From Actinomycetota bacterium (lineage in GTDB: Bacteria; Actinomycetota; Geothermincolia; Geothermincolales; RBG-13-55-18), in assembly GCA_028697145.1 (NCBI GenBank), contig JAQVFR010000024.1, forward strand, positions 1 to 51,430: a DNA stretch of 51,430 nucleotides, in the 5' to 3' direction. The notes beneath the pieces are model-generated. The model was given only the letters and a program-made list of their open reading frames with translations, was not told the DNA's origin and searched no databases. Both the position numbers and the translations under genes were made by a program. This document shows, one piece after another, positions 34,029 to 50,619 of this stretch. Positions within the stretch are counted from its first letter, which is position 1; every line of letters starts with the position of its first letter.

Positions 34029-35450
34029 ATGGAAAAGAAAGACTACTTGAGGAGCCTGTCCTCGGTAAACGACCTCATCCAGGCCGTGTACCGCAGCCGC
34101 AAGCTGGGCGGAGGCGTGCCGCGTGAGCTGGTTACCGAGGCGTCCCGGGTGGTCATAGACGGAGTGCGCGAGGCCATCCTCGCCGCCAGGGACGAGATGT
34201 CGCTGGAGAATATCAGGACCGACGCCGAGGAGCTGGTTCCCCTGGTGGAAAAAGAGGTCGAGGAGAGGATGCAGTGGAGTCTGCGCCGGATCATCAACGC
34301 CACCGGCGTGGTCGTACACACCAACCTGGGACGCTCCCTGCTCTCCGGGGCCGCCCTCGAGGCGCTGGCCACGGCGGGGTCGTACTACAACAACCTCGAG
34401 TTCAAGCTCGAAGACGGCTCGCGGGGATCGCGCCAGGTCCACCTGGGGAAGCTGCTGTGCGAGCTCACGGGGGCTGAATCCGCCCTGGTCGTGAACAACA
34501 ACGCCGCGGCAGTCCTTTTGGCGTTGACCGCCCTCGCCTCCGGCCGAGAGGTGGTCGTCAGCCGCGGTCAGCTCATCGAGATCGGAGGGTCCTTCAGGCT
34601 CCCCGACGTCATGGCCCAGAGCGGCGCCCGCCTGGTGGAGGTGGGCACCACGAACAAGACCTACCTGGAGGATTACCGCCGGGCTATAACCAGCGAAACG
34701 GCCATGCTCATGCGCGCCCATCCCAGCAACTACCGCATCATGGGTTTCACCTCCGAGGCGGGTATAGAGGAACTCGCCGGGCTCGCGCGCGAATACGAGC
34801 TCGTGCTCCTCGATGACCTCGGCAGCGGCGTATACGTCGACCTCTCCTCTCGCGGCCTCGCCTATGAGCCGACCGTCATGCGCTCGCTCGAGGAAGGCGC
34901 CCATCTCGTCTGTTTCAGCGGGGACAAGCTGCTGGGAGGGCCCCAGGCCGGCATCATCCTGGGCAGGAAAGACCTCATCGATGTACTGGCCAGACATCCC
35001 CTGGCAAGGGCGCTCAGGGTGGACAAGCTGACTGTAGCGGCCCTGGAAGCCACACTGCGCCATTACCTGGACCCCGAGCGGGCGTTTTCCGAGATACCGA
35101 CGCTGGCCATGCTCACCGCCGACCCGGATGCCCTGCGCGGGAGGGCTCGCAAGCTGGCGAAGAAGCTCGCGGCCCAGGATGATCTCGAGGCGGAGGTCAT
35201 CGAGGACGTCTCCCGCGCCGGCGGGGGCGCCCTGCCCATGGAGGACCTGCCAACCTGGGCGGTGGCCGTGACCTCGCCCTCGCACAGCGCCAACCTCATC
35301 GAGAAGGGGCTGCGCGAGGCGGAGACTCCCGTGATATGCCGCATCTCCGATGACCGCGTCATCCTGGACATGCGCACGGTAAGCGATGACGAGGTCGCCC
35401 TCATTGCGGAGGCCTTCGCGTCCATCGTCTCGCCGGATATTCCCGAGTGA
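34029..35450 (+). CDS. selA: L-seryl-tRNA(Sec) selenium transferase SelA
   Basis: The product has 473 residues from ATG 34029. It is a PLP enzyme converting Ser-tRNA(Sec) to Sec-tRNA(Sec) with selenophosphate. The N-terminal tRNA-binding region is followed by INATGVVVHTNLGRSLLS, ESALVVNNNAAAVLLAL, SRGQLIEIGGSFRLPDVM and the PLP-binding Lys300 in FSGDKLLGGPQAG. The length and all key residues are normal. Its last codon overlaps the possible GTG start of selB by two bases, indicating coupling. Confidence 0.97.
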   Translation: MEKKDYLRSLSSVNDLIQAVYRSRKLGGGVPRELVTEASRVVIDGVREAILAARDEMSLENIRTDAEELVPLVEKEVEERMQWSLRRIINATGVVVHTNLGRSLLSGAALEALATAGSYYNNLEFKLEDGSRGSRQVHLGKLLCELTGAESALVVNNNAAAVLLALTALASGREVVVSRGQLIEIGGSFRLPDVMAQSGARLVEVGTTNKTYLEDYRRAITSETAMLMRAHPSNYRIMGFTSEAGIEELAGLAREYELVLLDDLGSGVYVDLSSRGLAYEPTVMRSLEEGAHLVCFSGDKLLGGPQAGIILGRKDLIDVLARHPLARALRVDKLTVAALEATLRHYLDPERAFSEIPTLAMLTADPDALRGRARKLAKKLAAQDDLEAEVIEDVSRAGGGALPMEDLPTWAVAVTSPSHSANLIEKGLREAETPVICRISDDRVILDMRTVSDDEVALIAEAFASIVSPDIPE

Positions 35451-35452
35451 GT

Positions 35453-37360
35453 ATGAAAAACTTCATCATCGGCACCGCCGGACATATCGACCACGGAAAG
35501 ACCGAGCTCATAAAGGCCCTCACCGGCATCGACACCGACCGACTCAAGGAGGAGAAGGAGCGCGGTATCTCCATCGAGCTGGGTTTCGCCGATATCGCCC
35601 TGCCGGGCGGGATCACCGCGGGAGTGGTCGACGTGCCCGGGCACGAGCATTTCGTGAAGAACATGCTGGCGGGAGCCACCGGTTTCGACATGGTGCTGCT
35701 GGTGGTGGCGGCGGATGACGGGGTGATGCCGCAGACCGTCGAACACCTGGCCATCGTCGATCTCCTAGGCGTGAAGGACGGGGTGGTGGTGATCACCAAG
35801 TCGGACCTCGTCGACGAGGACATGCTCGAGCTGGTAAAGGAGGACGTCGCCGAGGCGTTGGCGGGCACGGCGCTCGAGGGGGCGGAGACCGTCGTGACCT
35901 CGAGCCGTACCGGCCAGGGCCTGGACGAGCTGCGTGAAGCCATCCTGAGGGTCGCGGCCCGGGTCGTCCAGCGCGAGCCGGGGGGTCCGTTCCGCCTTCC
36001 CGTGGACCGCGTGTTCACCCTCAAGGGGATAGGGACGGTGATCACCGGGACCATGTGGGAGGGCAGCGTGTCCGACGGCGAAGAGGCGGTCATCCAGCCT
36101 TCCGGCAGGAAGGTCCGGGTGCGCAACATACAGGTGCACGGGGAGGACGTGGAGCACGCCTACGGGGGGCAGAGGGTCGCGCTGAACCTGCCGGGCGTTT
36201 CCACCGACGAAATAGAGCGCGGAGACGTCATCGGCACGCCGGGGCACCTGCACTCCACCCTTATGGCCGACAGCCTGTTCCATCTCATCGCGAGCGCGCC
36301 CCGCTCCCTCAAGAACCGCGCGCGTGTGCGTTTCCACCACGGCACCAGGGAGGTAATGGCCCGCGTAATCCTCCTGGGGGGGAAAGAGGAACTGCCGCCG
36401 GGGGAGAGCGCATACGTACAGTTCCGCCTGGAGAGGCCGGTCATCGCGCGCTACGGTGACCGCTATATCCTGCGCAGTTATTCTCCCGTTACCACCATAG
36501 GCGGCGGGCTCATCCTCGACTCCCACCCCAGAAAGCACCGTCACCATCAGGGGGCGGTGCTCGAGAACCTGGGAGTGAGGGAGCGCGGTGTCCCGCGGGA
36601 ACTCGCCCCGCTCGTGGTGGAGGAAAGGGGGCTGCCTCTCTCCTGGCGGGAGCTTCTCTTCTGGACGGAGCTGCGGGAGGACGGCCTCGAGAAGGCGCTT
36701 GCCGAGCTGCTGTCGCGAAAGGAGATGGTGGAGATCGCGGGCGACAGCGGTCCCCTGTACGTAACTCCTTCCCTCCTCGCATCACTGCGGGAGCGCATGG
36801 TCGCCCTGACCGGGGAGCTGCATGAGTCGAATCCCCTGAAGCCGGGGATCGAGAAGGAGGCGCTGCGCCGGCGCTTGGACGCGGAGCTGGCGGTGGATGT
36901 CTTCGAGGCGCTGCTACGCAGCGCCGTATCCGCGGGAGAACTCGAGGTGGAGGCGGGCCGGGTCCGCGTCGCGGGAAAGGGCAGATCTCTCTCGCGGCAG
37001 GACAGCGAGGCAAGGGACGAGCTGCTGCGGTCCATCAGAGCGGGAGGTTTCACTCCCCCGCTCTTCAAGGAGATGGCCGAGGCGACCGGCCTCGACAAGG
37101 GGAAGCTGCGCGACCTCCTCGGCATCCTCCTGGAGGAGGGGGAGATCGAACAGGTGAACCCGGAATATTTCGTCGCCACGGGCAGGATCGCGAAGGCCGA
37201 GGAACGCATACGCTCCCACCTCGCCTCCATTGGCAGGCTGGGGGTGGCGGACGTGAGGGACATGCTGGGCGCCAGCCGCAAGTACGCCATCCCCCTGCTG
37301 GAGTACTTCGACCGCAAGAGGGTAACCAGGCGCGACGGTGACTACCGCGTTTCTTATTGA
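35453..37360 (+). CDS. selB: Selenocysteine-specific elongation factor SelB
   Basis: The product has 635 residues from ATG 35453 (GTG 35447 is a possible earlier start). The EF-Tu-like GTPase part has G1 GTAGHIDHGKTELIKALTG, G3 DVPGHEHFVKNM and G4 TKSD. Domains 2 and 3 follow, then about 250 residues of winged helices that bind the SECIS hairpin (the final ones include LRDLLGILLEEGEIEQV and SRKYAIPLLEYFDRKRVTRR). SelB brings Sec-tRNA to UGA codons of fdhA and selD. It closes the protein part of the sel operon; the tRNA-Sec gene follows 131 nt later after a palindromic repeat. Confidence 0.97.
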   Translation: MKNFIIGTAGHIDHGKTELIKALTGIDTDRLKEEKERGISIELGFADIALPGGITAGVVDVPGHEHFVKNMLAGATGFDMVLLVVAADDGVMPQTVEHLAIVDLLGVKDGVVVITKSDLVDEDMLELVKEDVAEALAGTALEGAETVVTSSRTGQGLDELREAILRVAARVVQREPGGPFRLPVDRVFTLKGIGTVITGTMWEGSVSDGEEAVIQPSGRKVRVRNIQVHGEDVEHAYGGQRVALNLPGVSTDEIERGDVIGTPGHLHSTLMADSLFHLIASAPRSLKNRARVRFHHGTREVMARVILLGGKEELPPGESAYVQFRLERPVIARYGDRYILRSYSPVTTIGGGLILDSHPRKHRHHQGAVLENLGVRERGVPRELAPLVVEERGLPLSWRELLFWTELREDGLEKALAELLSRKEMVEIAGDSGPLYVTPSLLASLRERMVALTGELHESNPLKPGIEKEALRRRLDAELAVDVFEALLRSAVSAGELEVEAGRVRVAGKGRSLSRQDSEARDELLRSIRAGGFTPPLFKEMAEATGLDKGKLRDLLGILLEEGEIEQVNPEYFVATGRIAKAEERIRSHLASIGRLGVADVRDMLGASRKYAIPLLEYFDRKRVTRRDGDYRVSY

Positions 37361-37491: not shown

Positions 37492-37587
37492 GGAGATGCA
37501 TTCGTCCTGGTGGGCGGCCCGGTCTTCAAAACCGGTGCGGCGTCGTAACGGGCGCCGGGTAAGTTCGATTCTTACGCATCTCCGCCA
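37492..37587 (+). tRNA. selC: Selenocysteine tRNA (UCA)
   Basis: It is 96 nt with encoded CCA. The acceptor stem is 8 bp (GGAGATGC/GCATCTCC) and the T stem 5 bp (GTAAG/CTTAC around TTCGATT), giving the 13-bp stack of bacterial tRNA-Sec. The anticodon stem CCGGT/ACCGG carries TCA at 37526-37528. A long variable arm (CGGCG ... CGCCG) and discriminator G are present. It follows selB in the same direction. Confidence 0.97.
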
Positions 37588-37654: not shown

Positions 37655-38764
37655 TCAGGGCACCACCGTCTCCACGACGCTGCCGGACGTACCCTCCAGG
37701 CCGGGAGAGACATGTACGGATCCCTCCGGGTCGACAGCCAATGTCTCGGCGTCCCCCAGGCCCTCCAGCCAGTTGATCCCCTCCGGGTATCCCAGGGTAA
37801 AGGCGGCGGTGGACATGGCGTCGGACCAGGCGCCGCTGCCTCCCCCGATGACCGTCACCGCAATCATCCCCTGGGCCGGATATCCGGTCCGCGGATCGAG
37901 GATGTGGTGGTAGCGCACGCCCCCGTACTCGAAATATCTCTGGTTGTCCCCGGAAGTGCTGATAAAGGTCCGGCCGGGAAGCGAGAAGGTTGCGAGGTAT
38001 CCCTCCCCGCGCGGATTGGAGATGGCGATGAGCCAGTCGGGGCCCCCCGCGGGCTTCGGCTTTTCCCCCAGGGTCATGCTGGTGCTGATCATGTCTATTA
38101 TCGCCGCATCCACACCCCGCGACGTCAACGCTTCTGCCGCCTTGTCCAGGGCGTATCCCTTCGCTATCCCCCCCAGGTCGATGCCCATGCCGCTGCGGGA
38201 GAAGAACACGCTGTGCGCGGTCTCGTCCAGGACCAGTCTGTCCGCCCCCACCAGGGGTAAAATGCCCCCTATTTCCTCCCCAGACGGCGGAGGGTCGCCA
38301 CGCTCGTCGCGCCCCACCACGTCCCACACGTCAACCAGGGGCGCGACGGTAATGTCGAAAACGCCGCCGCTCGCCTCGTATATCTCCATGCCCGTCACGA
38401 TCATCTGCCACAGCTCATCGGACACGTACACCGGCGCGGCGGCCGCCGTCGCGTTTACGCGTGCTATCTCGCTCTCGGGATCATAGCGGTCGGCTATCTC
38501 CTCCACGCGGAAGACCTCCCGGAAGGCCTCTTCCACCGCGCCCTCCACCTGCGACTGGTTCCTGCCGTAGGCGGTGATGGTCACCACGTCGTCAAGCACG
38601 TATTCCTGGCGCTTGTAGGGCTCGCTGGAATAACCGGGGTTCAACCATATCGCGAGCGCCACCGCTATGCCCGCCATCACTATGGCCGCGCCGATGACCA
38701 GCAGGGTGTCACGCCGGTTCTTCCTGCCAAGCCCCTTTTCGTCGCATGCGTCCTGTCTCATCAC
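37655..38764 (-). CDS. apbE: FAD:protein FMN transferase ApbE, membrane-anchored
   Basis: The product has 369 residues from ATG 38764. An N-terminal membrane anchor (LLVIGAAIVMAGIAVALAIW, residues about 21-41) puts the catalytic domain outside. ApbE motifs are intact: DRYDPESEIARVN, GVFDITVAPLVDVW, GIDLGGIAKGYALDKA, HHILDPRTGYPAQG and a GAWSDAMSTAAFTLG loop with the Mg-binding Asp. ApbE attaches FMN through a phosphodiester to Thr in proteins such as RnfD, RnfG and NqrB. A likely target, RnfD (41562-42509), is encoded on the same strand about 3 kb away, with only the P-type ATPase between. Confidence 0.93.
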   Translation of the reverse strand: MMRQDACDEKGLGRKNRRDTLLVIGAAIVMAGIAVALAIWLNPGYSSEPYKRQEYVLDDVVTITAYGRNQSQVEGAVEEAFREVFRVEEIADRYDPESEIARVNATAAAAPVYVSDELWQMIVTGMEIYEASGGVFDITVAPLVDVWDVVGRDERGDPPPSGEEIGGILPLVGADRLVLDETAHSVFFSRSGMGIDLGGIAKGYALDKAAEALTSRGVDAAIIDMISTSMTLGEKPKPAGGPDWLIAISNPRGEGYLATFSLPGRTFISTSGDNQRYFEYGGVRYHHILDPRTGYPAQGMIAVTVIGGGSGAWSDAMSTAAFTLGYPEGINWLEGLGDAETLAVDPEGSVHVSPGLEGTSGSVVETVVP

Positions 38765-38842: not shown

Positions 38843-41317
38843 TCACTCCCCTTCCCCCATGCCAACAGGGGCCGTGGTCTCCACCTCATCCATCTCCTCC
38901 ACGGCCGGAGGGGCCTCGCCGCTCCCGCGTATATATCTCATCATGTAGCGCACGGAGAGCTCCAGGAGCAGGGAGAACAATGCCGCGATGGCCAGGGACT
39001 GCAGCATGACGATGAGGCCCGGCAGGTCCAGCTGGAAGAAATCCCGGAACCAGGGTATGGCCAGGACCCCCACGAAAGAGCCGGACATCACCGCCACCAG
39101 AGCTCCTCTCCATGAGAACATCGGGCGCGAAAGGTACGCCAGCACGGCCAGCCCCACGATGGTCAGAACGATGACCGCCACCGTGCGCGACTCCTCGAGG
39201 CTCGCCCCGTGGGCCCGCGCCATGGCGTTGGCGGTGAAGGTCGCGGCGGCAGCGATAAAGCCCGCCGGGACAGCGAAATAGAGGACCCTCCGCAACAAAC
39301 CGGGCCGGTACCTTTTCTTGCTGGGGGCGAAGGAGAGCACGAAGGCCGGTATGCCTATGGTCAGCGAGCCCACCAGGGATATGTGGCGGGGCAGGAAGGG
39401 ATAAGGCCAGGCGATGATGGCGATGCCTATAGCGAGAAGCGCCGCATATACGGTCTTGGTGAGGAAGAGGTTGGCGACCCTCTCCATGTTGGCCATCACC
39501 CGCCGTCCCTCGGCGACGACCCGCGGCAGGGTGGAGAACCTCCCGTCGAGGAGCACCAACTGGGCCACGGACTTCGTCGAGGGGGCGCCTGAACCCATGG
39601 CTATGCCCATGTCCGCGTCCTTCAGGGCGAGGGTGTCGTTTACGCCGTCGCCGGTCATGGCCACCACGTGACCGTCGGACTGCAGGGCGTGCACCATCAT
39701 CCTCTTCTGCTCCGGGACCACGCGGCCGAACACCGTCCTGTCGTGCATGACATCGGAGAGACCGTCCAGTTCCGTGGGGAGCTTGCGTGCGTCCACGGGT
39801 GCGTCGGCGCCCGGGACGCCCACCCGCTCCGCTACGGCACCCACCGTGCGCGGGTTGTCCCCGGAGATGACCCTTATTCCTACCCCCTGATCCATGAAAT
39901 ATTCCAGGGTATCGGCGGCATCGGGACGGATCTTCTCCTCGATCACCAGGAGAGCCGTGTGCTCCAGGCGCGGCGGCAGCTCCTCCTGCGTGACCGCCTC
40001 CTCAACCCGGGAAAGCAGGAGCACGCGCAGCCCGGAACGGGCAAGGGAATCCGCTCTCTCCCGCATCTCCCTGTCCAACGAGTCCCGCAGCAACACCTCC
40101 GGGGCGCCCATCACCCAGGAACCGTGCCCCTCGAACGACACGGCACTCCACTTGCGCGCGGAGGAGAAGGGCACTGTGGCCGCTACCCTCCAGTCCGGCG
40201 GCGATGGAAAGGCGGTGGATATGGCCCGCATGGTGGAGTTCTCCGCTGGAGATGCCGCCGCGAAGGCGCCCAGCACCTCGTCGAGGCCGCTGCTCCCATC
40301 CAGGGGCTCGATGCGGCCGAACTGAGGGGTCCCCTCGGTGAGCGTCCCCGTCTTGTCCAGACAGATGACGTCCACGCGGGCCAGGCCCTCGACCGCGGGA
40401 AGTTCCTGTACCAGCACGTTCTGACGCGCCAGGGCCATGGCGCTCACCGCGAAGACCAGGCTGGTGAGGAGCACCAGCCCTTCCGGCACCATGCCCACCA
40501 GGCCCGCCACCGTGGCGATGATGGAATCGTCGAAGGTGTTGTCCGCGAGGAACTGGCTTGTGGCCAGGAGAATGGCCGTGGGGATCATTATGTACGTTAT
40601 GTACCGCAAGATGGTGTTGATGGCATCGCGCAGGTCGGACTTGACCAGTGCGTAGCGCCTGGCCTCAGAGGCGATCTTCTGGGCATAGGCGTCTTCGCCC
40701 ACGGCAGTCGCCCTGAACCTGCCCGCACCGGCGGAGACGAAACTGCCGGAGAGGAGTCCGTCGCCCTCCATCTTCACGATAGGGACCGATTCCCCCGTGA
40801 GCAGGGACTCGTCCACCTCCAGTCCCTCCGAGAAAAGCACTTCCCCGTCCACCAAGACCTGGTCGCCGGCCACGAGCTCTAGGAGGTCGTCCAGCACCAC
40901 CTCGTCACGCGCTATCTCCATGCCCGCCCCGTCTCGGACGACCCGCGCCCCGGGGGCGCTCAACAGCGAGAGGCGGTCCAGGGTGCGCTTGGCGCGAAGC
41001 TCCTGCAGGACGCCTATGAGGGTATTGAAGACGAGCACCCCGGCGAAGAGGGCGTCCCTGATGGGTCCGATGATTATCACCACCACAGCCAGGGCGCCCA
41101 GAAGGGCGTTAAAGCGGTTGAAGACATTGGCCCTGATGATGGAGCCATACGAACGGCTCGACTTGTCCGCTACCAGGTTGGTCTTCCCCTGGGCTATCCG
41201 CTCCCGTACCTCGCCGTCGCTGAGTCCGCGCTCCGCGAAAAGGGCGTCTCCGGGAGGTGACGCATCCGCTTGCGCGGCGCCGCGTTCTTCGCCGTGCATT
41301 ATCTCGCCGTCTTTCAT
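38843..41317 (-). CDS. P-type cation ATPase, CtpE-like
   Basis: The product has 824 residues from ATG 41317; Met7 is an alternative. It has the P-type layout: actuator motif LLTGESVPI, phosphorylation site CLDKTGTLTEG, hinge MTGDGVNDTLALKDADMGIA, and about ten membrane helices. Helix 4 has MVPEGLVLLTSLV, with PEG in place of the metal-binding CPC/SPC, which excludes heavy-metal pumps. It is also shorter than typical P2A pumps. This matches mycobacterial CtpE, a calcium transporter, but substrate is inferred. It is placed between two palindromic elements, with apbE downstream. Confidence 0.85.
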   Translation of the reverse strand: MKDGEIMHGEERGAAQADASPPGDALFAERGLSDGEVRERIAQGKTNLVADKSSRSYGSIIRANVFNRFNALLGALAVVVIIIGPIRDALFAGVLVFNTLIGVLQELRAKRTLDRLSLLSAPGARVVRDGAGMEIARDEVVLDDLLELVAGDQVLVDGEVLFSEGLEVDESLLTGESVPIVKMEGDGLLSGSFVSAGAGRFRATAVGEDAYAQKIASEARRYALVKSDLRDAINTILRYITYIMIPTAILLATSQFLADNTFDDSIIATVAGLVGMVPEGLVLLTSLVFAVSAMALARQNVLVQELPAVEGLARVDVICLDKTGTLTEGTPQFGRIEPLDGSSGLDEVLGAFAAASPAENSTMRAISTAFPSPPDWRVAATVPFSSARKWSAVSFEGHGSWVMGAPEVLLRDSLDREMRERADSLARSGLRVLLLSRVEEAVTQEELPPRLEHTALLVIEEKIRPDAADTLEYFMDQGVGIRVISGDNPRTVGAVAERVGVPGADAPVDARKLPTELDGLSDVMHDRTVFGRVVPEQKRMMVHALQSDGHVVAMTGDGVNDTLALKDADMGIAMGSGAPSTKSVAQLVLLDGRFSTLPRVVAEGRRVMANMERVANLFLTKTVYAALLAIGIAIIAWPYPFLPRHISLVGSLTIGIPAFVLSFAPSKKRYRPGLLRRVLYFAVPAGFIAAAATFTANAMARAHGASLEESRTVAVIVLTIVGLAVLAYLSRPMFSWRGALVAVMSGSFVGVLAIPWFRDFFQLDLPGLIVMLQSLAIAALFSLLLELSVRYMMRYIRGSGEAPPAVEEMDEVETTAPVGMGEGE

Positions 41318-41513: not shown

Positions 41514-41539
41514 AAGGGCCGGGTGAAGACCCGGCCCTT
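41514..41539 (-). terminator. Terminator of the tat-fdh-rnf gene run
   Basis: An 11-bp perfect stem (AAGGGCCGGGT with ACCCGGCCCTT) with a 4-nt loop lies 22 nt past the rnfD stop. CTTCTTC follows on the minus strand and ATCTTTT on the plus strand, so it may work both ways. Confidence 0.8.
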
Positions 41540-41561: not shown

Positions 41562-42509
41562 TCAGGCCGCGACCACTTCTCCGAACCTCTTGGGTTTGAA
41601 CACCTTGTCCAGCAACGGCACGAAGCAGTTGCCGATGATGATGGAGTAAGCCACGGCCCCCGTGGGCGCTCCGAAGACCCGTATGAGCACGATGCATACC
41701 CCGATGATCAGGCCGAAGATCACCTGCCCCCAGGTGAACATGGGGCTGGAGACCCAGTCGGTAGCCATGAAGAAGGCGCCGAGCATGACGCCGCCGGCCA
41801 GGATCTGGTACAGTCCGTCCGAGCCCACGATGTAGGAGAGGACGAACACGGTGGCCAGGATAGTCGTCGGGATCACCCAGCCTATGACCTTGCGGTAGAT
41901 GAGATAGGCGCCGCCCAGGAGCACCCAGAAGGCTCCCACCTCGCTGATGGCGCCGCCGTAGTTGGCGAAGAGCAGGGACCCATAGGAGGGGCCCATGCTC
42001 TCCAGGCCAGGCCCGATAAAGGCCAGCGGAGTGGCGCCGGTCACGCCGTCGAATCCGGCGGAGAGGAATCCGAGGTGTCCTGTCCAGCTCGCCAGGATTC
42101 CCGAGCAGGTGATGATGAACACGTATCCGAACAGCGCCGGGTTGAAGATGTTGCGACCCAGGCCGCCCATGAGTTCCTTTATGACCACGATGGCTATGAA
42201 GGACGCGATGATCATGTTCAGCCAGTGGATCTGCGCCGGCATGAGCAGTGCCAGGAGAAGCCCGGTCACGGCCGCGCTTCCGTCCCGCAGGGTTACCTTC
42301 TTCTTGCGCAGCTTGCGCACCGCCCACTCGAAGAACATGCATGATCCTACGCATACCGCGATGACGAACAGGGCATTGTAGGTGAATGCCACCAGCGCGG
42401 CGATGGTCACGGGCGCCAGGGCGATTAGCACGTCCCGCATCGCAACGGCGGTCTGCTCCTTGCTCCTCAGGTGCGGGGGCGGGGTCTGGACCAGGTTATC
42501 TGTAGCCAT
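41562..42509 (-). CDS. rnfD: RnfD-type membrane subunit with flavinylation motif
   Basis: The product has 315 residues from ATG 42509, with GGGAGG upstream. It has about ten membrane helices, with the RnfD/NqrB features MGGLGRNIFNPALFGYVFI and FFMATDWVSSPMFTWGQV. The stretch DGVTGATPL fits the ApbE flavinylation motif Dxx(S/T)GAT, so Thr of GAT should carry FMN. RnfD spans the membrane in the ferredoxin:NAD+ oxidoreductase. It follows rnfC by 15 nt. No rnfG, rnfE, rnfA or rnfB follows: a terminator and a repeat come next. So this is either half of a split Rnf operon or a separate module tied to FdhAB. Confidence 0.92.
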   Translation of the reverse strand: MATDNLVQTPPPHLRSKEQTAVAMRDVLIALAPVTIAALVAFTYNALFVIAVCVGSCMFFEWAVRKLRKKKVTLRDGSAAVTGLLLALLMPAQIHWLNMIIASFIAIVVIKELMGGLGRNIFNPALFGYVFIITCSGILASWTGHLGFLSAGFDGVTGATPLAFIGPGLESMGPSYGSLLFANYGGAISEVGAFWVLLGGAYLIYRKVIGWVIPTTILATVFVLSYIVGSDGLYQILAGGVMLGAFFMATDWVSSPMFTWGQVIFGLIIGVCIVLIRVFGAPTGAVAYSIIIGNCFVPLLDKVFKPKRFGEVVAA

Positions 42510-42524
42510 ATGCCATCGCCTCCC

Positions 42525-43850
42525 TTATTCCTTCTTCTTCTTTAAGGCCGCAATCTCGGCCTTTGCTTTGCGGACGTACTCTACATGGGGGATGAAGGCC
42601 GGGCATTCGAAGGAGCAGCAGCCGCACTCGAAGCAGTCCAGCGCTCCCCACATCTCGGCCTTGTCCCACTGTCCACGCTTGGCGGCCTGGACTATGAAGT
42701 TGGGGGAAAGGAACATGGGACAAGCCTCGATGCACTTCGAGCAGCGCACGCAATCCGTCTCCTCGCCCATCTCCACCACGTCGGAGGTGAGCACCACGAC
42801 GCCAGAGGTCCCCTTGACCACGTTGGCCGTGGTCCCGGACTGGGCCCAACCGGTCATGGGGCCGCCCATGATCAGCTTGACGGGATTACCGACGAAGCCG
42901 CCGCAGGCTTCGATGAGGTCCGATATCGGGGTGCCGATGGCCGCCAGCAGGTTGCCGGGCTCGCGGATGCCGGGCCCGGTCACCGTGAGCACCCTCTCGT
43001 AAAGGGGTTTGCCCCAGGCCGCCGCCTCGTAGAGGGCGATGGCCGTGCCCACGTTCTGCACCAGGCAGCCCACCTCGGAGGGGAGCTTGCCCGGAGGCAC
43101 CTTGCGGCCGGTGAGGGCGAAGATGAGCATCTTCTCGGCCCCTTCCGGGTACTTGACCTCGAGCACCTCCACCTCCACGTCGGAGAGCCCGGAGGCCTTC
43201 GAGCGTATGGCGTCCACGGCGTCCATCTTGTTGGCCTCGATGCCGATGATCACCTTGCCGGCCCCCACCGCCGTCTTCAGCAGCCGGGCGCCGGCGATGA
43301 GGTCGTCGCCCTTCTCCAGCATCTGGCGATGGTCGCAGGTGAGGAAGGGCTCGCACTCGCAGGCGTTGATGATGACCAGGTCCACGGGCTTGTCCTTGGG
43401 CGGGGTAAGCTTGACGTGGGTGGGGAAGGCGGCGCCTCCCATACCCACGAGTCCCGCCTCCTTTGCTATCTCGCGGATCTCGTCAGCCGAGAGAGAATCG
43501 ATGTCCTTGCCGGGCTTCTTGGCGAATTCCGGCTGCTCCGCGTCGGTCGTGATGACCACGCTCTTCACCTTGTTGCCGGTGAAGTTGGGCACGTCGACGA
43601 CTTCCTTCACCACGCCCGCCACCGAGGAGTGCACCGGGGCGGAGACGAAAGCGTCGGAGGAGCCTATCTTCTGGCCCACCTCGACGCGGTCTCCCGCGCT
43701 CACCAGGGCCTCGTTGGGGGCCCCGATGTGCTGCTGCAGGGGGATGATGACCTCCGCCGGCACCGGGGCGCGCTTTATCGCCTTGCCCGAGGCCAGCTCC
43801 TTATTGTAGGGGGGGTGGATGCCTCCCTTGAATGTCTTGGCTTCCGCCAT
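42525..43850 (-). CDS. rnfC: RnfC-type iron-sulfur subunit
   Basis: The product has 441 residues. ATG 43850 is chosen because GGAGG is correctly spaced; an upstream GTG overlaps that site. In order: the N-terminal RnfC domain (GGIHPPYNKELASG, VPAEVIIPLQQHIGAP), a biotinyl-lipoyl-like part (VSAPVHSSVAGVV), an FMN/NADH-binding core (GLVGMGGAAFPTHVKL, INACECEPFLTCDHR), then two [4Fe-4S] sites, CVRCSKCIEACP and CFECGCCSFECP. RnfC oxidises or reduces NAD(H) at the membrane. Its gene is adjacent to fdhB (stop at 43852, 1 nt away), which suggests that electrons from formate reach this subunit. Confidence 0.93.
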   Translation of the reverse strand: MAEAKTFKGGIHPPYNKELASGKAIKRAPVPAEVIIPLQQHIGAPNEALVSAGDRVEVGQKIGSSDAFVSAPVHSSVAGVVKEVVDVPNFTGNKVKSVVITTDAEQPEFAKKPGKDIDSLSADEIREIAKEAGLVGMGGAAFPTHVKLTPPKDKPVDLVIINACECEPFLTCDHRQMLEKGDDLIAGARLLKTAVGAGKVIIGIEANKMDAVDAIRSKASGLSDVEVEVLEVKYPEGAEKMLIFALTGRKVPPGKLPSEVGCLVQNVGTAIALYEAAAWGKPLYERVLTVTGPGIREPGNLLAAIGTPISDLIEACGGFVGNPVKLIMGGPMTGWAQSGTTANVVKGTSGVVVLTSDVVEMGEETDCVRCSKCIEACPMFLSPNFIVQAAKRGQWDKAEMWGALDCFECGCCSFECPAFIPHVEYVRKAKAEIAALKKKKE

Positions 43851-43851
43851 G

Positions 43852-44769
43852 TCAATCACCTCCCCCTTGCACCTTGCGTTCCATACCTTCGTTGCGCTTG
43901 TTGATCACGTAACCGGCGCCCGCTGCGGCGACCAGGCCCACCAGGGCCAGGCCCCCCCAGGGCGCTCCCGGCTTGACCAGGGTCTCCCAGACATGTACGC
44001 CTGCCGGCACCGTGGGCTTGGCGGGCAGGCCGTACTTATCGGGCTCGTCCTCGAGCACGTAGATGTAGTGGAGGCCTCCCACCTGGTCCAGGCCGTATAC
44101 CTGGGCGTTCTTCGAGCCGTTCTGCTTGAGGTAGTCAGCCCTGTCCTCCGCCTTGGCCAGCATCTCCTCGCGCGTGCCGAAGTCGAGGGCACCGGTGGTG
44201 CAGGTCTGCACGCAGGCGGGGCGGTTGCGGGTCGGGTACGGGTCGGGCTGGTTCTTCATGTCCAACCCGGCCTGCTCGGGCGTGGGGAAGGCATCGGGCT
44301 CGTTGGTGATGCGGTCGAAGCACATGATGCAGCGGAAGATGCCCTTCTCGGCCGCGTCGTAGCGGCAGGCCTGGAAGGGGCAGGTGGCCACGCAGTAGTT
44401 GCAGCCGATGCACTTCTTCGGGTCCGTCTTCACCAGCCAGGCCTCGCTGTCACCGTCGCTCACCTTATATTTCTGGGTTGCGCCGCTGGGGCACACCTTG
44501 ACGCAGGTGGCGTCGGTGCAGTGCATGCACTGGTACTTGGTGAAGTACCAGTACAGCTCGTCATCGGTGGCCGGGCGCTTCTCCGGCTCGTTGAAGAGGA
44601 TACGCATCCAGCACTGTGAAGTCAGCTCGAGCGGGTTCTCGTATGTGCCATTATTGTCCGTCCTGGTGTAAGTGCGCTGGTTCCAGTTCTTGCATGCGAC
44701 CTGGCAGGCCCGGCACCCCGTGCATTTGCTGGCGTCGAAGAGGATCGCCTTATCGGTAGGGTTAGCCAT
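43852..44769 (-). CDS. fdhB: Formate dehydrogenase iron-sulfur subunit FdhB
   Basis: The product has 305 residues from ATG 44769, one base after the fdhA stop. Four ferredoxin-type [4Fe-4S] clusters are visible (CTGCRACQVACKNW, CMHCTDATCVKVCP, CIGCNYCVATCP, and CIMCFDR with CVQTC). The C-terminus holds one membrane helix (LALVGLVAAAGAGYVINKRN), like FdnH of E. coli. It passes electrons from FdhA to a membrane partner. In E. coli that partner is the cytochrome b subunit FdnI; no such gene is present here, and rnfC and rnfD follow instead. Confidence 0.95.
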   Translation of the reverse strand: MANPTDKAILFDASKCTGCRACQVACKNWNQRTYTRTDNNGTYENPLELTSQCWMRILFNEPEKRPATDDELYWYFTKYQCMHCTDATCVKVCPSGATQKYKVSDGDSEAWLVKTDPKKCIGCNYCVATCPFQACRYDAAEKGIFRCIMCFDRITNEPDAFPTPEQAGLDMKNQPDPYPTRNRPACVQTCTTGALDFGTREEMLAKAEDRADYLKQNGSKNAQVYGLDQVGGLHYIYVLEDEPDKYGLPAKPTVPAGVHVWETLVKPGAPWGGLALVGLVAAAGAGYVINKRNEGMERKVQGGGD

Positions 44770-44770
44770 C

Positions 44771-47700
44771 TCACTTCACCTTCCTCAGGTTCACCAGGAA
44801 TGCTTTGTATTCCGGGATGGTGGTATTCGCGTCGCCTACGTGGGGCGTGATCTGATTTGCCGCATAGCTCCTGTCGGATATACCGTTGCGCTCCGGGCCG
44901 CCTGGTACGAACCCGATGTAACCGAAATGCCAGGTGATGCCGACTACGTGTATCGTCTTCTTGCTGCCGTTGTCGGAGACCTGAAGCGGCTTCAGGCGGG
45001 TGGTCACTACCGCCACCCCGCGGACCTTGCCGCGCACGCTCTCCAGCTCCACCAGGTCGCCCTTCTTGATGCCCAGCTCGTCGGCGAGCTCAACCGAGAG
45101 CTCGACGAACTGCTCGGGCATGGCCTCGCCCAGCCAGGTGTTGTTGCGGGTCATCTGGCCCGCCTGCCAGTGCTCGGTGACCCTGTAGGTGGTGCACACG
45201 TAGGGGTATCTCTCGTCTCCGGTCTCCGCGAAGCCGTACTTGTCCGGCTCCTCCTTGGCCGACGGCCATTCCAGCACGGCGGCCGGGTTCCACTGCGTCC
45301 CCGACAGCGCGTTCTTCACCGGTCCCTCCCTGGGCTCGTAATGCTCGGGGAAGGGGCCCTCGACCATGCTGCTGGAGAACAGCCGCCCTGCCTGCACCCC
45401 CACCTCGCGGTTCATGATATAGGGGCTGGCGCCGGAGTCGGCGGCCAGCGAGCCCTTCTTGTTGATGGCGAAGAAGTCGTTGACGTCGTTCTTCATCACC
45501 ATGTTCTGGCCCGATTCATCGAACAGGAACAGGGCCTTGTCCGGCGCGAAGGGTTTGCCGGAGTAGTCCATGGAGCAGCGGTTGTAGATGATGCGGCGGT
45601 TGACCGGCCATGCCCAGCCCCACACGGGGTAGGTGCCGACGTTGATCTTCTTGGCCGATGACGGGGCCTCATCCACTTCGCCGTACGCGCCGGTACCGTA
45701 GTTGTAGGTACCGACCTTGCCCGTCGCCGCGTTCGGGTAGTAGAGGGTCTTGCCCGCCTCGTCCCACCAGTAGAGCGGGGTCTTGAGCAGGTGCCACTTG
45801 GCCTTGTCGAAGGGGATGCCGTTCCACTCAAGGGCCTGCTTGTCCCTGGGGATCTTGACCTTGCCGTCGTCGCCCTTGGGCAGCTGGCCGTCTATACCGA
45901 TGATCTTGGCCGCTCCCTCTACGTCGGCGTCGGACGCCCATTCGCCGCAGTACAGCCAGTTGCCGCACGCGGTGCTGCCGTCGTCCTTGAGGTTGCCGAA
46001 GCCGAACACCGGCTTCTTGAAGGCCTCTTCCCAGGAGAACTCTCCTTCCGGCCAGGTGAAACCGTTGATCTCGAACAGCACCTGGTCCATGTTGGGGTCG
46101 CCGTGCTCGTCGTCGTCGTAGGCCCAGAACAGCTCCGTGAGGGCTTCCTTGACCGGGCCGCCCTCGGACTTGTACAGCTCGATGACCGCCTTCATGATCT
46201 GATGGGCAATGTAGGCGTCGCTCATGGCGTCGCCCGGGGGCTCCACCGCCTTCCAGCGGTACTGGGCCAGGCGGCCCGAGGTGCTGACCGAGCCGCTCTT
46301 TTCCACCGACGACGCGGCGGGAAGTGCCCACACCTCGGTCTGGATGTTCTTGGGGTCGGCGCCGGGTCGCTGCCAGAAGTTCATCAGCTCGGTGTCCCAA
46401 AGGTCCACCGCCGCCAGCCACTCCAGCTTTTCCAGGGCCGCGCACTCCAGGTTGGCGTTGGGGCCGCCCACCGGCGGGTTCTGGCCCCAGGACACCAGCC
46501 CCTTGATGATGCCGGCGTACATGTCCTCGAAGAGGGCGATGTGGGTGTAGTTCTTTCCCTTCTTCACCTTGGGGTGGAGGTCGTAGGCCTTGGCGAGATC
46601 CTTCCTGGCGTAATCTCCCCACCACGCCACGAGCAGGCTGGCCATGAACTTGGGGGTGTTCACCCAGTACCCGGCCTTGGGGGTAACCGCTCCCAGGTAC
46701 GCCTGGTAATCGGCATTGCTGTTGTTGGGGACGGCTATGTATGCGGGGATGATGTGTGAGAGCAGGGCGAAGTCCGTGGACCCCTGCACGTTCGACTCCC
46801 CGCGCAGGGCGTTGATGCCGCCTCCCGGCATGCCCGTGTTCCCCATGAGCAGCTGCAGCATGGCGAAGCAGCGGAGCTTCTCCGAGCCGGTGGTGAACTG
46901 CGTCATCCCCATGGCGTACATGAGGTTGCCGCTCTTCTCCCGCTTGTGGGTTATCCCGACGTACAGCTCGGCGATCTCCTTGAACTTGTCGGGGTCCATG
47001 CCGCAGACCTTGGCTATCATGCTGTTTTCCCCGTCGTAGGTGTAACGGGAGTAGTGCTCCTTGAGCTTTGCCCACACGGTCCCGGCTGCGGCATCGTCAT
47101 TGGGGATGTAGTTGCCGTTCGAGTCCATGGGCCCGCTGGGGATACCCCGGTTCGGGAAATCAGGGTTGGGGGCGAGCGGGATGAGGTCGGCGCGGATGGG
47201 CTGACCGTCGGGGCCCGCCTGGTAGGTCCAGGTCTTGGTATCGTAGCTCCTCTTCTCGGCGTTGTAGCCGCTGAAGAGGCCGTCCAACTCTGCGGCGCCC
47301 TTGAAGTCCGGGTTCACCATCACGGGAGCGTTGGTGTAGTTCTGCACGTACTCCCAGTTGATGTAGTTCTTGTCGATGGCGTACTTGATGAGCGCGCCGT
47401 AGAAGGCGATGTCCGTCCCAGGGCGGATAAAGGAGAACGCGTCCGCCCTGGCCGCGGAGCGGGTGAAACGGGGGTCGACCACGATGATCTTGGCGCCTCG
47501 CTTCTCCCTTGCCTCCTCCATCCATTTCCAGGACACCGGATGGTTTTCGGCAGGGTTGGCGCCGCATACCATGAAGACATCGGTGTTGCGGAGGTCGATC
47601 CAGTGGTTGGTCATGGCTCCGCGTCCGTACGTGCCGCCGAGACCGGCGACTGTGGCGGAGTGTCATATTCGCGCCTGATGTTCCAGGTACACGATGCCCA

Positions 47701-48235
47701 GGGCACGCGCGAACTTGGATATCAGGTAGCACTCCTCGTTGTCCAGGGCCGCCCCTCCGAGCTGGGCTACGCCCTCGCAGCGGTTCACCGTCACCTTGCT
47801 GCCGTTGACATCCTCGGTCTCTACAAAGGTGGCGTCACGGGTGTCCTTGATGAGGCGGGCGATCCTCGGGATGGCATCCTCCCAGGTCTTCTCCTCCCAT
47901 TCCGTGGCGCCGGGCGCGCGGTAACGAACCTTCTGCAGCCGCCTGTCGTTGTTGGCGACCTGGTAGATGGACTGCCCCTTGGAGCAAAGAGCAGCCTGGT
48001 TGATGGGGCTGTCGGGAAGACCCTCGAGACCCACCACCTTCCCGTCCATCACACTGACGATGGCGGAGCACCCGACGGAGCAGTACGGGCATACCGTCGT
48101 GCTCTCCTTCGCCTCGCTGATGCGAAGCTCCTCGGCAGCGGCGAAGGCAGGGGTGGAGAATCCGAGTTGCGCGAGGGCCGCGACGCCGATGCCGGCGCCC
48201 GACAGCTTGAGGAAACCTCTTCGCGAAAGTTCCAT
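44771..48235 (-). CDS. fdhA: Selenocysteine formate dehydrogenase catalytic subunit FdhA
   Basis: The product has 1154 residues from ATG 48235, reading UGA at 47663-47665 as Sec191. Upstream of the UGA the frame has a Tat signal (SRRGFLKLSGAG), the [4Fe-4S] motif CPYCSVGC ... CSKG, and ends LEHQARI. Downstream it goes on HSATVAGLGGTYGRGAMTNH with no start codon of its own. The Sec-His pair is the active-site motif of Mo/W formate dehydrogenases. A gene caller would split it in two. The rest is a normal molybdopterin oxidoreductase (NPAENHPVSWKWMEEAREKR, GMTQFTTGSEKLRCFAMLQL). It oxidises formate outside the membrane; the signal implies folded export with Mo or W cofactor. Confidence 0.95.
47633..47665 (-). 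promoter_or_regulatory. Sec UGA codon and SECIS hairpin in fdhA
   Basis: UGA is followed 12 nt later by GTCGCCG-GTCT-CGGCGGC, a 7-bp stem with a GGUCU apical loop. This apical loop is the same kind as in E. coli fdhF and is the expected SelB-binding site. It is on the minus strand inside the fdhA frame. Confidence 0.85.
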
Positions 48236-48400
48236 ACTTTCCCCCCACTTTCCTAGGTCGATTCCTGCAGTTGTGGAAATACAAAACTTGCGGTCACTAG
48301 ATATCTATGTTTAAACCCATGCGGGATTTGATTTCCTTTCCATGGCATGCGTTTCCTGCCCTCCTCGTTTGCGGCTTTCAAAGAACGATACGTCTAGTCC

Positions 48401-48417
48401 ATAATCTTAAGGATTAT
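48401..48417 (-). promoter_or_regulatory. Palindrome upstream of fdhA
   Basis: ATAATCTTAAGGATTAT is an inverted repeat with arms ATAATC/GATTAT and includes a TATAAT-like stretch on the minus strand, 166 bp upstream of the fdhA ATG. It may be a promoter plus operator controlling fdhA apart from fdhE. The rest of 48236-48476 shows no gene. Confidence 0.4.
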
Positions 48418-48476
48418 ACTATCCTTCATCTCCGCAAGGCAACAGCATCGTGCAGGGCAGAAGGCCTTTCCTTCCG

Positions 48477-49328
48477 CTATGAGAACGCCGTTCTGCAGCC
48501 TCTCTCGTAACCCATTTCATCCGCCGCCAGGTCGAGGTGCGCCGTCGCCAGATCCTCCAGCGGAAGCACGAATTCCTCGTCTTTTTCGCCGGGCGGGGCG
48601 CTTATCTTTATGTACTTCCTGCACGCCTCGCACAGGTAGACACGGCGGGAATCATCTTTGTCCGCGAATATGTATCTCAGCTTCTCCTGGTCCATATTGC
48701 TGCAGAAGGGGCACATGATGCGGGGGAATCCCCAACGCGCGCCGCAGAGAGAGCATTCCAGCACGCGCAGTCCGTCATCGGGACGAAGATAGCCCATGAC
48801 CGGGAGGTCCCCACATACCGGGCAGCGGCCTTGCGGCACCTGTCCCAGGTTCGTCTTGCGCAGCAGCGCCCCCGTCGTCTTCCAGAAGAAAGGGGCCAGG
48901 GATATGTGCAGCAGCATGTGGAGGACGGCGGGGCCGAGCGAGCACGCCTCCATGCGTTCCGCCAGCTCTTCGTCATCGTGTTCCAGGAATGCATCTATCA
49001 GGCCGCGGAGCTTCTCATCGTCCTCGAGTTCCTCCTCCAGGAACCTTTCCATGCCCTCCAGCGGCCCTTCGCCCTTCTTCTCCAGCACTTTTCCCAGCTC
49101 ACGCAGGATTTCCCTCAGGACCTGGAGGTCTACCTCGAGTTCGTCCGGCTTGATGAGCAATTCATTCTCCTCGATCCGGAAGGATACCTGCGCCCCCCTG
49201 ATATGCGGGAACTGGTCCGGGATGTCCCGGGACAGCTTCCTCTGGGTGGAGAATACCTCGCGGTAGAGGTTCATGACCCCCTTCAACCTGGGGTTCTTCC
49301 CCACGTATCTCTTCACCTCGCGGTTCAC
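48477..49328 (-). CDS. fdhE: Formate dehydrogenase accessory protein FdhE
   Basis: The product has 283 residues if GTG 49328 is the start. The C-terminal half has the FdhE rubredoxin-like CxxC series: CPVCGDLP, CSLCGARW, CPFCSNMD and CEACRKYI. FdhE helps mature or hold formate dehydrogenase before Tat export. The N-terminus is uncertain: the frame stays open 51 nt beyond GTG to a TAG without any ATG, GTG or TTG. Yet a strong GGGAGGT (49384-49390) lies just before an in-frame ATC, and the extra residues (IEIVEFELKQRKINKSL) look coding. It precedes fdhA on the same strand, 241 nt away. Confidence 0.88.
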   Translation of the reverse strand: MNREVKRYVGKNPRLKGVMNLYREVFSTQRKLSRDIPDQFPHIRGAQVSFRIEENELLIKPDELEVDLQVLREILRELGKVLEKKGEGPLEGMERFLEEELEDDEKLRGLIDAFLEHDDEELAERMEACSLGPAVLHMLLHISLAPFFWKTTGALLRKTNLGQVPQGRCPVCGDLPVMGYLRPDDGLRVLECSLCGARWGFPRIMCPFCSNMDQEKLRYIFADKDDSRRVYLCEACRKYIKISAPPGEKDEEFVLPLEDLATAHLDLAADEMGYERGCRTAFS

Positions 49329-49485
49329 CAGGCTCTTATTTATCTTGCGCTGTTTCAGTTCGAATTCGACGATCTCGATCTACCTCCCTCGCTGGTCTCT
49401 CCAAGTCACCCGCATGAGCCGCCGGGCCTGTCCCGGTCAGGCTTTCATATCCCGCTGCTTTCCGGGAGTCAAGGGATACTCATTA

Positions 49486-49505
49486 TATGACATGCTATGA
49501 CATGC
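49486..49505. repeat. Tandem 10-bp repeat TATGACATGC x2
   Basis: Two perfect head-to-tail copies of TATGACATGC lie between fdhE and tatC, one helical turn apart. A minus-strand TATAAT (49482-49487) overlaps the first copy. They may be paired binding sites for a regulator of fdhE. Confidence 0.4.
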
Positions 49506-49528
49506 GCAAGACCCGAAAAAGCCTGTCG

Positions 49529-50287
49529 TCACTCCTCAACCTCCGCCTCGACCGCCTCGGCCCTCATCTTTGCACCGCGTTTTCCCAGCATGGCGAAGAG
49601 GATGCTCCCTTCGTAGAGGACGAACATGGGAGCGGCCACGAGCAGCATGGTCACCGGATTCCAGTCCGGGGTTATCAGGGCCGCGAAGGCCAGGATGATG
49701 ATCACCGCGAAACGCCAGTTCTTGTGCAGCCTCTGGGGGGTGACGATCCCCAGCCTCACCACCAGCCATACCACCAGGGGGGTCTCGAAAGAGATGCCTA
49801 TCCCCACCATAAGCAGCGCCACGAAGCTCACGTATTGTCCCGCCATGAGGACCGGGGATATCACGCCCCCCGATTGGTCGGTAAGCCATTTTATTCCCAC
49901 CGGCAGGATATAGACGTAACAGAAGGCCACTCCGACCAGGAAGAAGAAGATGATGAAAAAGAGCGCGGCGAACATGAAGCGTTTTTCCTTCTTGCGCAGG
50001 GCGGGGGCTATATAGGCGATGATCTCGTAGATAATGACCGGCAGGGCGATGACGAGGGCCACGTACATGGCGATCTTGAAGCGCACCATGAAGGGCTCGA
50101 GCACGGTCTGGTAATAGAGGTTGAGGGGGATGCCCGCCCTGTTGGCGGGCTCCTTGAGGAAGGCGAGGATGTCCCACGAAAAGACGAATCCCACGCCGAC
50201 GGCCACCACGAGGGAAAGGAACATCACGATAATGCGCCTTCGAAGTTCCTCGAGGTGCTCGATAAAGGTCATCTTCTGGTCGGCCAA
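49529..50287 (-). CDS. tatC: Sec-independent translocase subunit TatC
   Basis: The product has 252 residues, starting at TTG 50287 six bases after GGAGG. Six membrane helices carry TatC marks: MTFIEHLEELRRRI at the N-terminus (signal-recognition loop), FMVRFKIAMYVALVIALPVI, PALRKKEKRF and the conserved LITPDWNPVT. TatC recognises twin-arginine signals; FdhA encoded three genes on is a direct customer. It follows tatA by 62 nt. The C-terminus is extended and acidic. Confidence 0.95.
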   Translation of the reverse strand: MADQKMTFIEHLEELRRRIIVMFLSLVVAVGVGFVFSWDILAFLKEPANRAGIPLNLYYQTVLEPFMVRFKIAMYVALVIALPVIIYEIIAYIAPALRKKEKRFMFAALFFIIFFFLVGVAFCYVYILPVGIKWLTDQSGGVISPVLMAGQYVSFVALLMVGIGISFETPLVVWLVVRLGIVTPQRLHKNWRFAVIIILAFAALITPDWNPVTMLLVAAPMFVLYEGSILFAMLGKRGAKMRAEAVEAEVEE

Positions 50288-50349
50288 AAAAGCCTCCGGA
50301 GACGTTAGGGGTTGGTTAAGGGGTGCTGATCAGCGGTTTCCCGGTAAGC

Positions 50350-50619
50350 CTATTCCTCTTCCTCTTCTTCCTCTATCTCTTCCTCTTCCGCCTTCTTCTT
50401 GCTTGCCTTCTTCTTGCTTGCCTTCTCTTCCTCGTCCTTGCCCTCCAGGCCTTCCTGCACGGCCTTGGTTACCTCGGAGCTCGAGGCCCTCAGTTCCCTG
50501 ATGGCCTTTCCGATCGAACGTCCCAGCTTGGGCAGCTGCGTGGGGCCGAAGATAACCAGGGCTATCCCGAGGATGATCAGCAACTCCGTCGGACCGAAAC
50601 TCTGAAAAAGCGCGAGCAT
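50350..50619 (-). CDS. tatA: Twin-arginine translocase pore protein TatA
   Basis: The product has 89 residues from ATG 50619 with AAAGGAGGG upstream. One short membrane helix (PTELLIILGIALVIFGPTQL) and the amphipathic helix with FGPTQLPKLGRSIGKAIREL are canonical for TatA. The tail is oddly repetitive and charged: EEKASKKKASKKKA followed by an all-acidic run (EEEEIEEEEEEE). No tatB-like gene is present, as in Gram-positive TatAC systems. It heads the tatA-tatC-fdhE-fdhA-fdhB-rnfC-rnfD series. Confidence 0.95.
   Translation of the reverse strand: MLALFQSFGPTELLIILGIALVIFGPTQLPKLGRSIGKAIRELRASSSEVTKAVQEGLEGKDEEEKASKKKASKKKAEEEEIEEEEEEE

Follow-up and report, generated by a model that had tools for sequence, protein, structure and literature searches.

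In the usual account, exported formate dehydrogenases (FDHs) and uptake hydrogenases pass their electrons to quinones or cytochromes. The window analysed here, a stretch of 51,430 nucleotides of contig JAQVFR010000024.1 (assembly GCA_028697145.1, an Actinomycetota bacterium), encodes an exported FDH whose genes run directly into rnfC and rnfD, raising the question of where the electrons of formate would go. As far as the sequence allows a judgement, this operon probably encodes a transmembrane formate:NAD+ oxidoreductase, in which electrons would pass from FdhA through FdhB, RnfD and RnfC to NAD+. Cells carrying it would probably gain cytoplasmic NADH from external formate and charge the membrane in the process.

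An exported formate dehydrogenase encoded with RnfC and RnfD

On the minus strand between positions 37655 and 50619, open reading frames (ORFs) and profile searches identify tatA-tatC-fdhE-fdhA-fdhB-rnfC-rnfD, followed by a P-type ATPase gene and apbE. The order and strand that the initial annotation gave for the first seven genes are borne out by family profile matches. The catalytic subunit FdhA (44771-48235) is a selenocysteine (Sec)-containing FDH-N type enzyme of 1154 residues (TIGR01553, 1041.6 bits against a cut-off of 814.2), exported by twin-arginine translocation (Tat) with the signal SRRGFLK, and its nearest Protein Data Bank (PDB) chains are 1h0h, 9qm0 and 1kqf. It is encoded by a single gene that reads across an in-frame TGA codon (47663-47665; Sec191, EHQARI-U-HS), which the ORF finder splits into two ORFs; the TGA is retained in most relatives checked, with a Cys codon instead at two loci (L058 and L070). 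The genome's other FDH-superfamily molybdoenzymes give only partial FdhA matches, at 30-40% identity. The beta subunit FdhB (43852-44769) has cysteines to ligate four [4Fe-4S] clusters and a single membrane helix at its C-terminal end (residues 271-289); its best PDB match is FdnH of E. coli (1kqf_B, E 1.6e-48), and the alignment extends into that helix. A divergent FDH maturation factor, FdhE (48477-49328), matches PF24859 and PF24860 above their cut-offs and TIGR01562 below its cut-off.

The genes rnfC (42525-43850) and rnfD (41562-42509) follow without interruption. The rnfC ORF opens at 43859, and its likeliest start is the ATG at 43850, 1 nt past the fdhB stop; GGAGGTGATT near the 3' end of fdhB, ahead of this start, forms the rnfC ribosome-binding site. 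As the rnfC start lies so close and its ribosome-binding site falls within the end of fdhB, fdhA-fdhB-rnfC-rnfD are tightly packed, with 15 nt between the rnfC stop and the rnfD start.

RnfC and RnfD were proposed to stand where a cytochrome b subunit is normally encoded, and this placing held in the host genome (2.98 Mb, 52 contigs, 97.6% complete), whose close relatives are Candidatus Geothermincola and Candidatus Solincola (Actinomycetota). Neither FdnI (TIGR01583) nor b561/Ni_hydr_CYTB (PF01292) has a match anywhere in this genome, so that the genome search yielded no membrane partner of the usual kind for FdhAB and no fdnI homologue that could pair with it. The genes rnfB, A, E and G are missing from the operon, as first described, and from the operons of relatives. 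They do occur in the genome, but on a different contig, within a complete rnfCDGEAB operon. The host has two RnfCs, and the FDH-linked copy is 45% identical to the canonical one; the FDH-linked RnfD is 39% identical to the canonical RnfD.

Intact cofactor sites in RnfC and RnfD

RnfC, the predicted NAD(H)-reactive subunit (TIGR01945, 519 bits against a cut-off of 246; PDB 7zc6_C, E 4e-132), keeps the domain for flavin mononucleotide (FMN) and NAD, and all eight cysteines for its two [4Fe-4S] clusters are invariant in the alignment. RnfD is a membrane flavoprotein of 315 aa (TIGR01946, 255 bits against a cut-off of 207) that carries PF03116 only, and its structural model (predicted local distance difference test, pLDDT, 76.8) superposes on Rnf RnfD with a TM-score of about 0.8. 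In a profile alignment, T160 of RnfD aligns with the covalent-FMN threonine T236 of NqrB and with that of RnfD in 7zc6 and 9eri, and it lies within DGVTGAT, an exact ApbE motif as given in PMC12052999. The proposed flavinylation of RnfD thus finds its predicted site kept, and the sole apbE of the genome, encoding an FAD:protein FMN transferase (37655-38764, minus strand; PF02424, E 2.4e-73), lies in the same neighbourhood; in one relative (L051) apbE stands immediately 3' of rnfD. Across the RnfD alignment, including the RnfDs of complete Rnf operons, the threonine is conserved while its GA context varies. A strict DxxSGAT pattern failed in most RnfD relatives and was discarded as too strict. 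In the host's canonical RnfD (L003:9273-10316), a Ser replaces the Thr at the flavinylation site (DVASGAS). On this sequence evidence, the RnfD-RnfC half of the predicted electron path is intact.

Conservation within and outside the class

Strong FdhB matches (E < 1e-25) are found in 22 of 31 genomes sampled from this class of uncultured bacteria, and by coordinates every one of them adjoins rnfC, with gaps below about 80 nt. In three of the families that make up the class, the fetched loci follow the order tatA-tatC-fdhE-fdhA-fdhB-rnfC-rnfD, the tat genes being missing at a few loci (L062, L071 and L072), and no complete Rnf operon lies adjacent in the relatives. Amino-acid identities among these loci fall to 43-50%, and third codon positions of rnfC, rnfD and fdhB differ about 2 to 7 times more than second positions. 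Persistence in many genomes at such identities, with third positions diverging most, indicates that the gene order is not due to chance. There is also an FDH-RnfCD subtype that has diverged further (identity of about 45-50%), seen in L071 (G001:C177) and the loci L065-L072 of family f4, and G001 carries both subtypes.

Outside the class, 84,980 species genomes were scanned. Among the matches listed, two Bacillota contigs from metagenome-assembled genomes (MAGs) carry rnfC-rnfD-fdhA-fdhB (L097) and fdhA-fdhE-rnfC-rnfD-fdhB (L098), and a further contig (L099) carries rnfC-rnfD followed by genes for a FeS protein and a hydrogenase. The recurrence of the same parts in different orders suggests that FDH or hydrogenase and RnfCD are functionally linked. 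The contig L099 is labelled Desulfovibrio sp., with a sporulation-sigma-like neighbour and a tree position beside Bacillota, and is probably mis-binned. Also among the matches listed, contigs of Dethiobacter and Halanaerobiaceae (L102:9210-14678 and L119:6974-12020) encode RnfC-RnfD pairs without rnfABE, next to genes for UbiA prenyltransferase, polyprenyl synthase, FMN_bind or b561 proteins, possibly reflecting a further use of the RnfC-RnfD pair.

A sister operon with an exported hydrogenase

A hydrogenase-rnfC-rnfD operon was verified in 18 genomes of the class; it is absent from the window's genome, which has only two RnfCs. Its order is a Tat-signal [NiFe(Se)]-hydrogenase small subunit, the large subunit, a 166-aa membrane protein and rnfC-rnfD, continuing with the maturation genes hyaD, hypF, hypD and hypE. 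The 166-aa protein (L044:10861-11358 and 17 homologues) has no family match, and its model (pLDDT 79.6) bears a weak resemblance to the cytochrome b of hydrogenase-1 and to FdnI (best E 0.003, TM-score about 0.63). With no more than one His conserved in its alignment, it cannot bind a pair of bis-His haems. As a lead from modelling, it may represent a cytochrome b fold without haems, possibly a scaffold relic, with electron transfer assumed by RnfCD.

Evolutionary history of RnfC and RnfD

Phylogenetic analysis of 97 RnfC rows places every RnfC linked to an FDH or a hydrogenase, along with three further stand-alone RnfCs, in one 39-row set that holds no complete-operon member (SH-aLRT, Shimodaira-Hasegawa-like approximate likelihood ratio test, 87, moderate support), and the host's canonical RnfC lies far from it. 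In the RnfD tree, the FDH and hydrogenase groups are apart from each other and from three complete-Rnf rows. The FDH and hydrogenase operons of the same genome have RnfCs that are 61-80% identical, whereas their RnfDs are only 38-44% identical. At about 80% RnfC identity, mean RnfD identity is 72-78% within the FDH, hydrogenase or complete-Rnf groups, compared with only 39% between FDH and hydrogenase operons (56 pairs). This difference suggests a donor-specific RnfD and a common RnfC output. The simple reading of these sequences is that RnfC would have been exchanged between FDH and hydrogenase operons, with RnfD remaining tied to its electron donor.

Proposed mechanism and alternatives

The gene set, its order and conservation, the intact cofactor sites and the lack of a cytochrome b candidate are all seen in the sequence, and from them we infer the complex, its electron path, its specificity for NAD, its direction and its lack of ion pumping. 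In the proposed mechanism, Tat would carry the Sec-containing FdhA to the outer face of the membrane along with FdhB, whose C-terminal helix would serve as the anchor. Formate electrons would run through the [4Fe-4S] chain of FdhB to the FMN that ApbE attaches to RnfD on its outer side, FdhB delivering them at the position held by RnfG in Rnf. From there they would move to the riboflavin of RnfD, enter RnfC with its two [4Fe-4S] clusters and its FMN, and end on cytoplasmic NAD+, RnfCD standing in for the FdnI cytochrome b and quinone. In Rnf, the outer RnfD FMN likewise hands electrons to a riboflavin near the inner side, and RnfC passes them by way of two [4Fe-4S] clusters and an FMN to NAD+ (PMC12174285). 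With two electrons moving inward, one proton released outside and one consumed inside, the membrane would be charged without RnfA, E, G or B, and the sister RnfCD would serve its exported [NiFe]-hydrogenase in the same way. Textbook potentials give about -19 kJ/mol for formate to NAD+; with two charges moved, this could support a membrane potential of about 100 mV. If true, such a direct and electrogenic connection with NAD would be a different way of conserving energy when formate or H2 is oxidised close to the limit set by thermodynamics.

Several points weigh against this proposal. The small driving force means that the reaction may run either way, and the contact between FdhB and RnfD is predicted from gene order and from the known positions of FdnH and RnfG. 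FdhB scores 201 of 335 bits on the FDH-beta equivalog TIGR01582, below the cut-off. The genome in which no cytochrome b partner was found is 97.6% complete, and the relatives of the operon are nearly all MAGs. The window RnfD also keeps the second Phe of the NqrB gate, the first being Leu as in Clostridium and Acetobacterium RnfDs, and with this gate Phe retained ions could possibly still move through RnfD.

Formate oxidation is the slightly favoured direction. The same complex may conceivably work in reverse, the membrane potential pushing NADH electrons outward to reduce CO2 to formate outside as a syntrophy-like electron disposal, and this is the likeliest of the alternatives while remaining doubtful. 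Two points count against such a reversal: well-characterised FDH-N enzymes oxidise formate, and the sister hydrogenase, which is conserved, looks like an exported uptake enzyme. Reversal is made easier by a redox span of only about 0.1 V, by the reversibility of Rnf (PMC12174285) and by the Wood-Ljungdahl markers FTHFS and CdhC/AcsB in the genome. An unlikely alternative would pass the electrons to menaquinone at an NqrB-like RnfD and leave RnfC a merely structural role. It draws on the homology of RnfD to NqrB, on the RnfCD pairs beside UbiA and polyprenyl synthase genes in the Dethiobacter and Halanaerobiaceae contigs, and on the one UbiA-family protein of the genome, which perhaps serves menaquinone. 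However, RnfC keeps its cluster cysteines and its FMN/NAD domain, unlike the cofactor-free NqrA (PMC12174285), and the 315-aa RnfD has no N-terminal extension of the kind that forms the quinone site of NqrB.

The complete rnf operon elsewhere in the genome bears on two further explanations. The FDH-linked RnfC and RnfD could swap into the complete Rnf, making formate an extra entry point and ferredoxin reduction possible as well; the 45% identity between the two RnfCs would permit this, but the RnfDs share just 39% and each operon retains its own C-D pair, making the swap more unlikely still. Least probable is a decaying or rearranged Rnf fragment beside an unrelated FDH, an idea suggested by the missing rnfA, B, E and G. 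A recently broken or rearranged Rnf is contradicted by the separate complete operon, by the 39-row RnfC set and by conservation with mainly third-position change, and the same pairing recurs in other orders in the Bacillota contigs.

Beyond the preferred transmembrane oxidoreductase, RnfD-RnfC might be a general plug-in linking exported dehydrogenases (for formate, H2 and perhaps other donors) to cytoplasmic NAD, in which RnfD alone would move Na+ or H+ during electron transfer, as a minimal Rnf-type pump lacking RnfA, E, G and B; judged from sequence, this extension seems rather improbable. Two competing proposals assign ion transport in Rnf to RnfD/NqrB or to the RnfA-E pair (2025 review, PMC12174285), and an RnfD that works without RnfA/E would offer nature's own experiment for telling these two sites apart. 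At the proposed ion site (E219 of A. vinelandii), the window RnfD has Ala193 and C. tetanomorphum likewise has Ala, but relatives have Ser, Leu, Val or Ile.

Neighbouring genes

The operon begins with the Tat translocase subunit genes tatA (50350-50619; PF02416, TIGR01411) and tatC (49529-50287; TIGR00945 above cut-off), both on the minus strand. These had been taken for an exporter of the operon's own; both genes do lie in the operon, but tatC, with a single PF00902 match, is the only copy found in the genome and not part of a dedicated second set, so this is the sole Tat translocase detected. ApbE is likewise found as a single copy, and both single-copy genes lie at the operon locus. A terminator had been assigned after rnfD, where a GC-rich hairpin (41514-41539) is present; its T tail on the minus strand is poor, and the P-type cation ATPase gene (38843-41317; PF00122) and apbE continue on the same strand. 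The ATPase gene holds the same position between rnfD and apbE in eight relatives from one family of the class. On the opposite (plus) strand of the contig lie tRNA-Sec (37492-37587; ARAGORN), which is needed for decoding the fdhA TGA, and the genes for the selenocysteine elongation factor SelB (35447-37360; GTP_EFTU and SelB-wing domains) and selenocysteine synthase SelA (34029-35450; PF03841, E 2e-154).

Comparison with known systems

No description of an FDH- or hydrogenase-RnfCD complex was found among the open-licence papers searched, and PMC6895022, PMC7325909, PMC9751293, PMC10213532, PMC10215811, PMC4014512 and PMC5736913 are without one. The NQR/RNF-like two-subunit systems (PMC8238504; PMC11334425) share with the operon a single Rnf/Nqr leg and one-way transmembrane electron flow. 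In these systems, however, an RnfD/NqrB domain without the flavinylation threonine is fused to an NqrF-type NAD domain (PF00175) and accompanied by an FMN_bind protein, and electrons run outward from NAD(P)H; the two papers make no mention of formate, hydrogenase or RnfC. The window RnfD is without a PF00175 fusion, and no FMN_bind protein was found among the operon proteins scanned. The Na+-translocating NADH:quinone oxidoreductase (Na+-NQR) differs in the N-terminal quinone-site extension of NqrB, which the window RnfD is without, and in its cofactor-free NqrA (PMC12174285), where RnfC retains Fe-S cysteines and the FMN domain.

The sister operon resembles the group 1 [NiFe]-hydrogenase with cytochrome b, HyaABC, in having a large subunit and a small one exported by Tat, and its 166-aa protein weakly matches the hydrogenase-1 cytochrome b fold. 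It differs in that this protein has too few conserved histidines for two bis-His haems and is followed by rnfC-rnfD. The operon has RnfC and RnfD in common with the Rnf complex (7zc6, 9eri, 8ahx), and both proteins agree with their Rnf counterparts in fold and cofactor sites. Rnf additionally has RnfA, B, E and G and takes its electrons from cytoplasmic ferredoxin, whereas the predicted donor here is an exported FDH and the predicted electron path would cross the membrane only once. FdnGHI of E. coli (1kqf) shares the Tat-exported Sec-containing alpha subunit. Its four-cluster beta subunit with a C-terminal membrane helix is the best PDB match of FdhB, which has the cluster cysteines and the helix but stays below the TIGR01582 equivalog cut-off. 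However, FdnGHI uses a di-haem cytochrome b, FdnI, and delivers electrons to quinone, whereas RnfC and RnfD are encoded in FdnI's place in the window and the predicted acceptor is NAD+.

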